A stretch of 33,157 nt of DNA from Candidatus Nitrosocosmicus sp. (GTDB taxonomy: Archaea; Thermoproteota; Nitrososphaeria; Nitrososphaerales; Nitrososphaeraceae): contig QCWC01000002.1 in assembly GCA_013114705.1 (NCBI GenBank), positions 1 through 33,157 on the forward strand, given 5' to 3'. Below are positions 2,424 to 20,797 of this stretch, piece after piece. The translations under genes were made by a program, and so were the position numbers. Position 1 is the first letter of the stretch; each line of letters starts with the position of its first letter. The notes under the pieces are model-generated. The model saw only the letters and a list, made by a program, of their open reading frames with translations, made no database searches and had not been told where the DNA came from.

Positions 2424-2444
2424 GACTTTGACTATAGGTCGATA

Positions 2445-2696
2445 ATGGATTTTAGATTAGGGATGATGGCAATTGTGATGGTGGTTACTTCCTTGACTTT
2501 GGCTCCTACATTAGTGATGAATCAATCAGCAGAAGCAAATCATTATTGTACTGATTACAAGGGTAAATCCAAAGATTGGATAGAAGGGTGTAAACAAGGT
2601 TGGTATGATCATGATCATTGTTGGGGATATTATCCAGGGAAAGGCGATTACGCTAGAGGATACGCAGTCGGTTGGGACAAGGGAAGCTGCAGATAG
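2445..2696 (+). CDS. Small Cys-rich secreted protein
   Basis: An 83-residue protein of unknown function. Residues 1-31 form a signal peptide with a hydrophobic core and a SAEA cleavage site before NHYC. The mature part of about 52 residues has four cysteines (35, 49, 59, 82), enough for two disulfides. It is rich in Gly, Tyr, Trp and His, with an imperfect internal repeat (GCKQGW and GYAVGW) and a DHDHC segment that could bind metal. It has its own TATA box at leaderless spacing and is followed by a T-rich run near 2722-2738. It stands among other small secreted genes. A small disulfide-stabilised surface or periplasmic protein is inferred. Confidence 0.75.
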   Translation: MDFRLGMMAIVMVVTSLTLAPTLVMNQSAEANHYCTDYKGKSKDWIEGCKQGWYDHDHCWGYYPGKGDYARGYAVGWDKGSCR

Positions 2697-2972
2697 TAAT
2701 TTAGATAAGTAACATTAAATCCCTTTATTTTTATTTTTTGATTAGCATAGATAATACTATTTTTAGTAAAAAATTAGCGTCTTTTTGTTATGGATCAGAT
2801 ACAAATCTGGAATCAGTTACAATTGTGGCTGAGTTATATTATTCATTGTCATTTGAATAGAATGGATAAATTCTTGTTGAAAATTTGGTGTCTTATTGAC
2901 AGCAGATAATTTGATAAACTTATCCAAGGTTTTTCACAAGAATTAAAATAGAAAATATTTTCTTCAAAAAAT

Positions 2973-2995
2973 TTGGTTAGTTCTTAACTAACCAA
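2973..2995 (-). terminator. Perfect 10-bp hairpin between convergent genes
   Basis: TTGGTTAGTT at 2973-2982 is the exact reverse complement of AACTAACCAA at 2986-2995, with a 3-nt loop. On the minus strand the hairpin lies about 50 nt past the stop of the 3044-3337 gene and is followed by a T-run, like an intrinsic terminator. The gene at 2445 ends on the other side, so it could serve both. An operator or RNA-processing role is possible. Confidence 0.5.
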
Positions 2996-3043
2996 TTTGC
3001 TCATGAACCGTGTTTGCTCTATTTATAGAGCCTTTGGAAAGCA

Positions 3044-3337
3044 CTATCCAGTAGAATTGGCTAATAATCTGTCTAATTCGTCATCAGCAGATTGACAGAA
3101 TTCTAGTGCTTCATTGGTGTTATCATCTTCTAACTCTTGAATACAATCTTCGAGATGATCATCAACTGTTTGTAAACTCGGCTGTTCGTTGCTTGACTCG
3201 TCGTCGGTACTTGTTTGGTTAGAATTGGATTCATCAGTGCTCGCAAAGACTGAACCAACATGGTTTACTGCCATAGCGCTAACCATCAAGATAGAATAGG
3301 CCAAAATGAATATGCTTAAATACTGATTTTTGTTCAT
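3044..3337 (-). CDS. Small acidic secreted protein with a Cys pair
   Basis: A 97-residue protein of unknown function. A signal peptide spans about residues 1-32 (hydrophobic core ILAYSILMVSAMAV, cleavage after VFA). A Ser/Asn/Thr/Asp-rich linker of about 25 residues follows. The C-terminal part (about 56-94) is strongly acidic and helical, with Cys65 and Cys81 16 residues apart, a pattern that fits a disulfide-clamped helical hairpin. A perfect inverted repeat lies about 50 nt past its stop. It belongs with the other signal-peptide proteins of this region. No catalytic motif is seen. Confidence 0.7.
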   Translation of the reverse strand: MNKNQYLSIFILAYSILMVSAMAVNHVGSVFASTDESNSNQTSTDDESSNEQPSLQTVDDHLEDCIQELEDDNTNEALEFCQSADDELDRLLANSTG

Positions 3338-4201
3338 CAGGGGTTAACCTAGAGTTGGGTAATTAAGTTTTTCGTTTGTTGGTTGCTACACATCCATGTC
3401 TAATTCATTTTCTGTACTCATTTATCAAATTTACTCAATTCAACGTAAAAAATTGATAGATATTTTATCCTTGCATAAATTGTCATATTGTTTTAATGAA
3501 TTTTTGTAATATGGCTGACTAGTTGAGGTAAATGATGATCACAAACAGTCGATATCTACTTTTTATTCATTTTCTCCGGTCAATTTCTAATAGTATAGAA
3601 TCTTGCAATGTTTGATAACCTAAAGCGATCTATGAATATGGTGAATTGTATCTTCAAAGTTAGATTGACTAAAGTAATAATAGCAAATAAATGCAGTTTT
3701 ATACTTTTCTAATCCTTTGGCCATCTTCGTTCCATTTCTCACCTCATAAGAAATATCGAATATCATAACAATATTGCTATGATGCTTGGTGATTTCGGAG
3801 TAGATAAAATAAATGTACGCGAAATTGCGTATATTATATCTGAAAGTCTTTCCCTACGTATGATCAAAGAACGATCTTTGGGACATGCTGCCAAAACAAT
3901 AAGGTCCTTAATTGATAATACTATGAGAAAATTCAAAATTATTTATTGAATAAAGCGGTTACTATTTGCCCACTGAAATTTATTCTCTATATCTGAAGAA
4001 CAAGGTTCCAAGTTGATGTTCTCTCATATAGGTATACTTGCCATTGACTATTCTCAAAACCTCTAATTGTCATGATCTTGTCTTTCTGAACTTATAACAC
4101 AATATATTGTAGAAAAATAATTTGTTCATCTAATACTATTATAAGATTATTTATACGAACAAAATTCTGTAGTAAGATTTTGTTTTAATTTTACAGTATC
4201 G
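3338..4201. other. Intergenic stretch with one short ORF
   Basis: About 860 bp separate the acidic secreted gene from repeat copy 2. Apart from the short frame at 3779-3949, listed separately, I see no gene, RNA or array. The part nearest 4202 (from about 4080) is very AT-rich. Confidence 0.4.
3779..3949 (+). CDS. Possible short protein or gene remnant, 56 residues
   Basis: An ATG frame starting MMLGDFGVDK continues to TGA at 3947-3949. The frame is also open upstream to about 3713. The peptide is mixed helical and basic (INVREIAYIISESL, then KTIRSLIDNTMRKF), which looks more like real protein than random AT-rich translation and might be a degraded helix-turn-helix. No promoter is clear. I cannot name it; a remnant of a longer gene is as likely as a functional mini-protein. 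Confidence 0.3.
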   Translation: MMLGDFGVDKINVREIAYIISESLSLRMIKERSLGHAAKTIRSLIDNTMRKFKIIY

Positions 4202-19467: not shown

Positions 19468-19755
19468 GTGGATTTTTTTCATAAGAAATATTCATGTGAA
19501 ATAGATGGAGAAAAGTTTGCGTCAGAGGACGAATTAATGGAACACTATCGAACAATTCATCATAAGATGATATTAAAGTGTCACAAATGCGGAAAGCAAT
19601 TTATTCATGAGAAGGATCGGCTACATCATGTTCGCGAAGAACATGAGAAGGAAATGGATGCTAGAGTTCACAAAAGCGAGCACAAACATAAGGGAACGGG
19701 AAATCCTCAAGACCAAGTGGATTCAAATATGCGAAACTTCGGAGACAATTTCTAA
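19468..19755 (+). CDS. Two-finger C2H2-type zinc-finger protein
   Basis: A 95-residue protein starting at GTG. Finger 2 is canonical: C38-x2-C41-x12-H54-x4-H59. Finger 1 aligns on the same grid but has Asp13 in place of the second Cys (C10-x2-D13-x12-H26-x4-H31). A basic, His-rich tail (ARVHKSEHKHKGTG) follows. C2H2 fingers of this classical spacing are common in eukaryotes and recurrent as small proteins in Thaumarchaeota. DNA, RNA or protein binding is likely; the target is unknown. The gene stands alone and converges with the cobalamin-binding regulator. Confidence 0.8.
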   Translation: MDFFHKKYSCEIDGEKFASEDELMEHYRTIHHKMILKCHKCGKQFIHEKDRLHHVREEHEKEMDARVHKSEHKHKGTGNPQDQVDSNMRNFGDNF

Positions 19756-19827: not shown

Positions 19828-20727
19828 TTATTCGTACAACTTTTTGTTCTTCGGGTGATTTTTTAATACCAATTTTACCGTTTTGATGAGTGAATCTATA
19901 GTTGAATTGACAATTAAAGTAACATTTGGACCAGTGGATTCTAATCTTTTCCTTTCCTCATCACTACAATTATTTATAGCCAATCCACCAAGTAGGATCG
20001 GTGTTTGAAAACGAGAACTTAAACTATTTATTAATCTTAGTGCTGAACCAATATTGTCACGTAAGGTTACTGATACTAATACTAATTTTGGATTTGATTC
20101 TTTCATATGTACTATTACTGAATCGGTTGGAATAGAGGGAGAAATATTTAATACGTTAAAACCTTTTTCTAGCAACACAGATTCAATCATGTTACAAGCA
20201 ATATTATGAAGTTCTCCATCCGGAGTACATATTAGGATGCCCCCCAAATTATTACTGGCTTTTGTGGATCTAGTTAATTTATGGATAGCCATATTAGCCA
20301 TATTACTACAAACATGTTCCGTACCCACATCAATAGTGTTATTTTGCCATAAAATGCCAATTTCGTACAATATGGGCTTGAGAATATTTTCATAAAACAT
20401 GGATAAACTGCGGCTTTCTCGAAAGTCTTCAACTGCTCTTATAATGCTATCAATATTTCCTGACTTTAAACCGTCAAATACATTTTGTCTTAGTTCATTA
20501 AGTGTTTGTTCCGGGACTTTCTGCATTGTGGTAACAGCCGAAACTAATGACAATATTTTGGGATCATTTTTATATTCTGGTGGGATGTTCTCAATTCTCA
20601 AATCACATGATTTGCCCAAATATTTTATTGTTTGTTGGGTTGATATCTTTCTCTTCGAATCCCATTGGCTTTTTACTAAATAATAATAATCAAATCCTTT
20701 TACCTTTTTTACGCGGATGAATACCAT
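19828..20727 (-). CDS. Cobalamin-binding regulator resembling the CarH sensory half
   Basis: 299 residues. Residues 1-40 (VFIRVKKVKGFDYYYLVKS to TIKYLGK) look like the beta-hairpin N-terminus of IS1634-type transposases, not a MerR domain. About 70-150 is a four-helix cap with W127-x9-E137-H138, the CarH-type signature. About 160-290 is a B12-binding Rossmann fold with E172-L-H174-N-I-A (ExHxxG variant, Gly to Ala), S219-V-T-L and G247-G248. CarH-type proteins sense light through adenosylcobalamin. The residue after W127 is Gln128 where Thermus CarH has the His that caps cobalt after light, so the photochemistry may differ. Repeats in its promoter suggest autoregulation. A methyltransferase corrinoid role is less likely. 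Confidence 0.8.
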   Translation of the reverse strand: MVFIRVKKVKGFDYYYLVKSQWDSKRKISTQQTIKYLGKSCDLRIENIPPEYKNDPKILSLVSAVTTMQKVPEQTLNELRQNVFDGLKSGNIDSIIRAVEDFRESRSLSMFYENILKPILYEIGILWQNNTIDVGTEHVCSNMANMAIHKLTRSTKASNNLGGILICTPDGELHNIACNMIESVLLEKGFNVLNISPSIPTDSVIVHMKESNPKLVLVSVTLRDNIGSALRLINSLSSRFQTPILLGGLAINNCSDEERKRLESTGPNVTLIVNSTIDSLIKTVKLVLKNHPKNKKLYE

Positions 20728-20761
20728 GACAAAAAGAGTTATATACTGTTAGATATTAACA

Positions 20762-20797
20762 TAGTGCTAATTACTTAGGCTAGTGCTAACTTTATAA
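20762..20797 (-). promoter_or_regulatory. Promoter and direct-repeat operator of the cobalamin regulator
   Basis: TAGTGCTAA occurs exactly at 20762-20770 and again at 20781-20789, 19 bp apart (about two helical turns), in direct orientation. On the minus strand a TATA-like ACTTATAAAG (20789-20798) abuts the second repeat, so both repeats fall between TATA and the predicted RNA start. That position suits a repressor that blocks initiation. The regulator encoded just downstream is the natural candidate to bind here. Confidence 0.6.

Follow-up and report, generated by a model that had tools for sequence, protein, structure and literature searches.

The window analyzed here, i.e. a stretch of 33,157 nucleotides from Candidatus Nitrosocosmicus sp., holds on its minus strand a gene for a protein of 299 amino acids (19828-20727, with the ATG at 20727 and the stop at 19828), and inspection of the reading frames revealed stops throughout on the plus strand of the same segment. 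The protein is composed of an N-terminal three-stranded sheet, a helical cap and a B12-binding Rossmann domain. In a Pfam scan of all 299 residues, B12-binding_2 was identified at residues 82-150 (E 8.4e-8) and B12-binding at 165-257 (E 1.8e-9), the B12 domain extending to residue 290, and no other Pfam domain was found. A MerR domain was absent by Pfam from the whole protein as well as from residues 1-59 scanned separately, and the domain search that an earlier note on this DNA had suggested for residues 1-45 matched nothing in either scan. A putative operator and a TATA-like element precede the gene. Convergent to it, at 19468-19755 on the plus strand, lies a gene for a 95-residue protein that is C2H2 zinc finger-like in its Cys/His spacing.

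The features of the B12 domain, all on the minus strand, were placed by means of Pfam, AlphaFold2 and an alignment of 62 sequences, i.e. the window protein and 61 of the 77 family ORFs, from which near-identical sequences had been thinned and one with a mid-sequence gap dropped. The helical cap (B12-binding_2, residues 73-155, 20263-20511) carries the adenosyl-cap motif Wx9EH, with Trp127 encoded at 20347-20349 and Glu137-His138 at 20314-20319. In the Rossmann subdomain (residues 160-290, 19858-20250, placed also by fold comparison) the motif reads ExHxxA-x41-SxT-x25-GG and includes His174 (20206-20208), the predicted lower axial ligand of cobalt. The residues listed in the earlier note, i.e. 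W127-x9-E137-H138, the ligand His174 within E172-L-H174-N-I-A177, and KYLGK at 35-39, are all present in the translation. Invariant in the 62 aligned sequences are Gly124, Trp127, Glu137, His138, Glu172, His174, Ser219, Thr221 and Gly247-Gly248. With E172, H174, S219, T221 and G247-G248 at spacings of 41 and 25, the window protein fits the CarH/LitR pattern D/ExHx2G/P-x41-SxT/V-x22-27-GG, except that Ala177 stands where the pattern has Gly or Pro; its Wx9EH motif aligns opposite the W and EH of Thermus thermophilus CarH (TtCarH). Three elements of the light-responsive CBD signature (PMC11796333) are kept in nearly every family member, namely GxxW (62/62), EH (62/62) and GxxH (61/62), while the fourth, GxxxP, as placed by alignment, reads S196-x3-P200 in the window protein, with Gly in 30 and Pro in 61 of the 62 sequences.

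The earlier note had equated Gln128 with His132 of CarH and taken this residue, together with an Ala for the Gly of ExHxxG, to mean a different chemistry. Both substitutions are borne out, as in the pairwise alignment the His following the cap Trp of T. thermophilus CarH is matched by Gln128, and residue 177 of the window protein is Ala. Their proposed meaning did not hold in this form. According to excerpts of PMC11796333, proteins with Gln (SasPcob), Tyr (AbDPcob) or Arg (CtMerR) at the His132 position are all light-responsive, and CtMerR responds to light without a bis-His state. Within the archaeal family, the six commonest residues after the cap Trp are Ala (33), Glu (10), Gln (9), Ser (3), Asp (3) and Lys (2, n=62), making the Gln of the window protein one of several that occur there, and Gln128 argues solely against a bis-His light state. 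The loop residue three positions after the ligand His is Gly in 45 and Ala in 14 of the 62 sequences; the Ala is a lineage variation and no family trait.

Among solved structures, the B12 domain of CtMerR (8jbs) was closest by sequence with E 4.3e-13, followed by the photocobilin 8j2w with E 1.7e-12. When the B12 part was compared by fold using VIA-align, the photocobilins came out on top (Z 24.1-24.5), led by 8j2w (Z 24.5 over 205 residues, 2.0 A) and followed by 8j2x and 8j2y, and below these were found 8jbs/8jbt (Z 21-22, with 22.1 for 8jbs), MetH 1bmt (20.1) and CarH 5c8e (19.5). The NCBIfam model of CarH gave 39 bits against a cut-off of 400 and matched residues 109-262 only, and the methyl-carrier models MtgC, MtbC and MtaC gave 19.1-34.4 bits where 215-450 are required. 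The cap Trp, Glu-His pair and ligand His mark the B12 domain as one of the CarH/photocobilin type. Furthermore, an adenosyltransferase (PF01923, E 7.8e-56) is encoded in the same genome, so that adenosylcobalamin (AdoCbl) can be made.

Residues 1-45 (20593-20727, minus strand), delimited by AlphaFold2 and family identity, constitute a putative DNA-binding domain, a basic three-stranded sheet ending in KYLGK with 11 K/R against 3 D/E. Conservation within the family is highest at the N-terminus, with a mean pairwise identity of 70% over residues 1-50, compared to 49% in the cap and 51% in the Rossmann subdomain (62 sequences). AlphaFold2, run once with the 62 aligned rows (mean pLDDT 90.7) and once for the N-terminal part by itself (87.2), predicted antiparallel strands at 2-9, 12-23 and 28-39 (pLDDT about 92), followed by a helix. 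The basic hairpin ending in KYLGK that the earlier note described is thus correct as to charge and ending, whereas the three strands make it a sheet instead of a hairpin. Searches with the N-terminal model gave nothing below E 0.5 in Foldseek and at best Z 4.6 in VIA-align (a ribosomal match), with PC4 at Z 3.0 and the arm-type integrase 3jtz at Z 2.6. As the fold has no confident match among solved structures, its proposed role in DNA binding rests on the operator described below.

The same module of 45-50 residues was found at the start of archaeal Fic-domain proteins (hhalign 95%), in four frames (L252-L255, at 2437-3351 on the minus, 2038-2931 on the plus, 1656-2594 on the minus and 1799-2692 on the plus strand, respectively), and the one scanned, L253, matched Pfam Fic at E 1.9e-19. 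Since these proteins begin with the three-stranded module, it is common to the regulator and to an AMPylation-type enzyme family. It is also carried by small archaeal proteins of 135-156 amino acids (hhalign 97-99%). Five of these (L246-L250) consist of the module and a tail of no known family; Pfam identified no family in L249 and L250, and nothing over the cut-off in the first 78 residues of L246. Both groups have the module as in the regulator, but lack the B12 domain. By sequence comparison they are firmer relatives of the N-terminus than the IS1634-type transposases which the earlier note was reminded of. A tblastn search of 72,556 plasmids with the family consensus returned three records at E<=10, two of which match a single IS1634 transposase at its N-terminus (37.5% identity, E=5), with an hhalign probability of 53% for the transposase against the module. 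A search for the IS1634 family in 31 family genomes gave a single sub-threshold match, outside the N-terminus. What stands is a weak positional likeness, i.e. a similar basic segment of 45 residues at the same end of the protein, at a similarity that is not significant; kinship with transposases is left unproven, and the DDE transposase domain present in the plasmid transposase P0002 is absent by Pfam from the window protein.

As regards distribution, a relative at E<1e-20 was read from the search table for 31 of 70 genomes of the same family, the raw tally of 68 out of 70 also counting the B12 part of a different protein, mostly of 840-880 residues. When 84,980 species genomes were scanned with a degenerate pattern, the 132 matches included 109 relatives, and the best 80 of the 109 are all archaeal by title and nearly all from Nitrososphaeria. 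The regulator belongs to an archaeal family found across the ammonia-oxidizing Nitrososphaeria. In one contig titled Nitrosopumilus (JACDCB010000109.1), the regulator is Nitrosocosmicus-like and 59% identical to the window protein, and the label is probably wrong. No relevant paper on cobalamin photoreception in these archaea was found in the open-access literature, and an earlier mention elsewhere is possible.

The DNA at 20762-20797, which the earlier note had singled out for a binding test, does contain a real and highly conserved direct repeat. This putative operator (20762-20789, minus strand) has the form TTAGCACTA-N10-TTAGCACTA, with half-sites at 20781-20789 and 20762-20770, i.e. at a spacing of 19 bp, and is a perfect repeat in the window. 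Directly after it, and some 29 bp ahead of the ATG, comes the TATA-like TTAATAT (20753-20759, minus strand). In relatives, too, the DNA preceding the gene has TTAGCACTA twice, 19 bp apart and beside a TATA-like element. We scanned the 90 distinct upstream regions out of 107, seven broken or truncated loci having been left out, with the window repeat as sole seed. At least 14 of its 18 bases occurred within 300 bp upstream in 72 of the 90, compared to 13 of 400 segments of 300 bp drawn at random from these loci, some of which may themselves contain real sites. The position is nearly constant, as 66 of the 72 sites end 28-35 bp before the start codon. A matrix derived from the sites found 178 matches across the 80 loci (832 kb), where a dinucleotide shuffle gave 1.5, and a TATA-like element follows within 14 bp at 114 of 157 sites (15 of 780 random places).

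Besides the regulator itself, matrix sites were found upstream of SDR genes (30 places), FAD oxidase genes (27) and genes for a secreted-looking WVKNTAGWWADG protein (13). Counted by locus, a site lies in the promoter of the divergent SDR gene at 27 of 41 loci, of the FAD oxidase gene at 26 of 35 and of the DUF1722 gene at 7 of 44. An operator upstream of photolyase was rejected, the site occurring in none of 11 such promoters. The secreted-looking proteins, nicknamed PEFG, have repeated WVKNTAGWWADG segments, no Pfam match and the operator beside the start of the gene; examples are at L132:4936-5856 and at about 4774-4801 in L083. In one group of loci (L142:5937-5964, L145:1126-1153 and L147:5937-5964) the repeat lies on the opposite strand beside the start of the regulator gene, as though it had been inverted. 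In another two loci (L095:520-547 and L098:495-522) the operator precedes a TFB-like gene by about 230 bp, a hint of possible control of a basal transcription factor by the regulator in some species.

Co-occurrence of regulator and operator was analyzed in 201 genomes of the order, using the module search and the exact pattern of the window with at most two mismatches. Regulator-bearing genomes had the site in 58 of 68 cases, all others in 9 of 133 (Fisher p 4e-30, a statistic that ignores shared ancestry), the 68 including some with only a broken copy of the regulator (e.g. G012, G017 and G065). In Nitrosopumilaceae, a family name read from the named loci, the figures were 34/35 and 0/16, respectively (p 2e-12, again ignoring shared ancestry). 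A reversed pattern, used as control, was found in 9 of 68 and 6 of 133 genomes, and 10 of the 68 regulator genomes had no site at this threshold. An earlier test on 70 genomes of the family, with two remnant-only genomes omitted and shared ancestry ignored, gave 23/31 against 7/37. Eight Nitrosopumilaceae genomes were searched with at most three mismatches; in four, the sites cluster at the regulator locus (3/3, 3/3, 2/2 and 4/4), and the other four have sites elsewhere too. Photolyase was found in 17 of the 201 genomes, all with the regulator (p 2e-9, ignoring shared ancestry) and 12 with both genes within 10 kb of each other, and within Nitrosopumilaceae alone in 12 of 35 genomes with the regulator and 0 of 16 without (p 0.01, with the same reservation). 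The remaining 51 of the 68 regulator genomes have no photolyase.

Gene neighbors were analyzed at 78 loci with an intact regulator, with flanks of up to 6 kb, many of them ended by contig ends. The commonest were SDR/NmrA genes (58 loci), followed by DUF1722 (44), FAD amine-oxidase-type (36), SRPBCC-like (32) and photolyase genes (12), the SRPBCC-like gene having been named by reading, with no Pfam match. At least two of these five occur at 52 of the 78 loci and at least three at 36. The arrangement varies, as the SDR gene is divergent in most Nitrosopumilaceae and upstream on the same strand in many Nitrososphaeraceae, and the photolyase gene changes position; the link between the genes thus outlives rearrangement. 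TFB-like genes lie near 38 of the 78 loci. Among the conserved neighbors, a part of which were annotated, no gene for B12 synthesis or uptake was found. The carH locus of T. thermophilus (pTT27) encodes an SDR with 39% identity over 282 amino acids to the archaeal SDR (E 7e-62), a photolyase with 27% (E 6e-51) and a DUF523-DUF1722 protein with 25% (E 1e-13) to the respective archaeal relatives. Between the FAD oxidase and Thermus CrtI or another Thermus FAD oxidoreductase there is little likeness beyond the nucleotide-binding motif, and for this reason we do not claim the same FAD oxidase. No relatives of the FAD oxidase were found on plasmids at 1e-5, and the SDR neighbors on a Haloarcula plasmid include no light genes. 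Parts of the bacterial literature describe a Pseudomonas LitR locus with photolyase, short-chain dehydrogenase and FAD-dependent oxidoreductase (PMC9758184), and TudS-DUF1722 proteins in light-responsive LitR operons (PMC11417400).

Taken together, the window protein is probably an archaeal transcription regulator that uses AdoCbl as light sensor, and likely a repressor with a non-MerR DNA-binding domain. Although by the evidence presented here it would act like CarH, it is not classed with it, there being no MerR domain. The central idea of the earlier note, a new architecture of cobalamin-dependent regulator in archaea, is supported and gains much from operator, co-occurrence and gene neighborhood, and the note as a whole fared partly well: the reading frame and residues were confirmed, and three details of interpretation did not stand as put. 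Computation has established the residues, the fold class, the operator repeat, the gene linkage and the co-occurrence; contact of the sheet with DNA, the form of the cofactor, the response to light and the polarity of regulation are what we infer. In the proposed mechanism, a dark oligomer of the AdoCbl-bound protein would place two N-terminal sheets on the two repeats beside the TATA element and, while bound, exclude TFB/TBP from the promoter. Light would then split the Co-C bond, loosen the oligomer and free the promoter, whereupon SDR, FAD oxidase and the regulator itself would be expressed as a light-protection set, joined by photolyase and DUF1722 genes where present. Counting against this reading are the photolyase promoters with no site and the few DUF1722 promoters with one, the 51 regulator genomes devoid of photolyase, the 10 regulator genomes in which no site was found, the Ser in place of Gly in GxxxP, and a window contig with none of the four partner genes.

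Archaeal activators commonly bind just upstream of TATA, and the sites described here lie upstream of the TATA element and not over it. The same light sensor might accordingly be wired the other way, with the dark AdoCbl form activating by recruitment of TFB/TBP, or with the light form being the one that binds DNA; we hold this to be unlikely, given that CarH and LitR are dark repressors with promoter operators, in the case of CarH direct repeats, as far as the consulted text of PMC8156234 and PMC11417400 goes. Another possibility, to which we assign a smaller probability still, retains the operator and oligomer logic and changes the input, so that the amount of AdoCbl would be read as B12 status (or redox or oxygen would be sensed via the corrinoid) instead of light. 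The adenosyltransferase, the many regulator genomes devoid of photolyase and a window copy with no light gene beside it are all compatible with this, but the cap residues are those of light-responsive domains (excerpts of PMC11796333), photolyase is confined to regulator genomes (17/17), the gene set is held in common with the Thermus carH locus, and the conserved neighbors that were annotated include nothing for B12 synthesis or uptake. It is more doubtful yet that the repeat is the site of another factor, e.g. a TFB paralog or a small regulator, the B12 protein itself acting on protein or RNA. Such a reading would draw on an N-terminal fold with no proven DNA-binding relative, on the occurrence of the module in Fic and small proteins, and on the TFB-like genes near the regulator loci, yet the site is tied to the regulator gene at near-constant spacing and follows the presence of the regulator from genome to genome, as is clearest in Nitrosopumilaceae. 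A corrinoid methyl carrier, finally, is suggested by nothing but the weak MtgC, MtbC and MtaC matches, whose scores rule this reading out for practical purposes; the AdoCbl cap Wx9EH is invariant, and the partner methyltransferase by which the earlier note would have recognized such a protein was not seen, on reading, beside the gene or elsewhere in the window, leaving it a vanishingly small probability.

For the organism of the window itself, it has to be considered that the system is decaying and that the window copy survives as an autoregulator with no targets left, a view that is somewhat unlikely in our judgment. The copy is one of several in Nitrosocosmicus-like genomes. In three of these (G009, G010 and G016) an SDR gene, broken in G016, lies just upstream of the regulator, and beyond it comes a TFB-like gene. 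Such a TFB-like gene is present in the window as well (by likeness, not Pfam), with no SDR at that place. Neither SDR, FAD oxidase, photolyase nor DUF1722 was found in the 33-kb contig, nor any photolyase in the assembly, which is 86% complete. The SDR of this genome resides on contig C100, beside a second, frameshifted copy of the regulator (L049, 6265-6435) consisting of the N-terminal domain only, the B12 domain having been lost. We considered whether this copy might work as an N-terminal protein in its own right and discarded the idea; with its frameshift and missing B12 domain it is taken to be a remnant. A similar truncated copy in another genome (L046) has an intact N-terminal frame of 74 residues. 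Decay would also agree with broken copies in other genomes of the genus, and with the operator of the window being the only exact copy in its assembly. Against it, the ORF in the window is intact with every cofactor residue kept, and operator and a relative with 77% identity are retained in G008. With no SDR beside the window copy, a broken copy on C100 and no photolyase, the system may be reduced here, and with only the autoregulatory site intact, the remaining regulon may be small.

In the reading that we prefer, that of a CarH-like light sensor, the likeness to CarH/LitR comprises the Wx9EH cap, the ligand His, the helical cap and Rossmann fold (Z 19.5), a direct-repeat operator at the promoter, here predicted in silico and of other sequence and spacing, and linked SDR, photolyase, DUF1722 and FAD-oxidase-type genes. 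It differs in that a three-stranded basic sheet replaces the MerR winged helix, in a 19-bp spacing of the repeats where CarH has tandem 11-bp repeats, in the Gln at the His132 position, and in being archaeal and located at TATA promoters. The photocobilins SasPcob (8j2w/8j2x) and AbDPcob (8j2y), the best fold matches, have a bilin-binding globin-like domain where the archaeal protein has its N-terminal sheet, and SasPcob shares the Gln after the cap Trp (as given in a part of PMC11796333). CtMerR (8jbs/8jbt), the top PDB match by sequence and light-responsive without a bis-His ligand, has a MerR DNA-binding domain. The methyl carriers MtaC, MtbC and MtgC and the B12 module of MetH share the cap, the Rossmann B12 fold and the loop with the ligand His; the former have models whose cut-offs the window protein falls far below, and the latter, by the available text of PMC8156234, is without the Wx9EH adenosyl cap.

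CarH homologs are, in the portion of PMC8156234 consulted, spread across bacterial taxa. On balance, we lean slightly toward a widespread family of archaeal AdoCbl photoreceptors, in which a CarH-type sensor is joined to a new DNA-binding domain, i.e. a three-stranded sheet that would read TTAGCACTA repeats spaced by 19 bp beside TATA, and which would switch photoprotective genes in ammonia-oxidizing archaea from marine and soil habitats. A single protein, a 28-bp DNA and a defined set of target genes make up a ready test system, and the module may offer a compact non-MerR DNA-binding part for optogenetic design. Photoinhibition, i.e. the inhibition of nitrification by light, is called well documented in a passage of PMC9239080, and the regulator, if confirmed, would provide a concrete mechanism for the light response of these archaea. 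In that case, B12-based light control would have been adapted to TBP/TFB promoters of the eukaryote-like kind, with the same sensor and much the same targets as in bacterial CarH/LitR joined to a different DNA-reading part.
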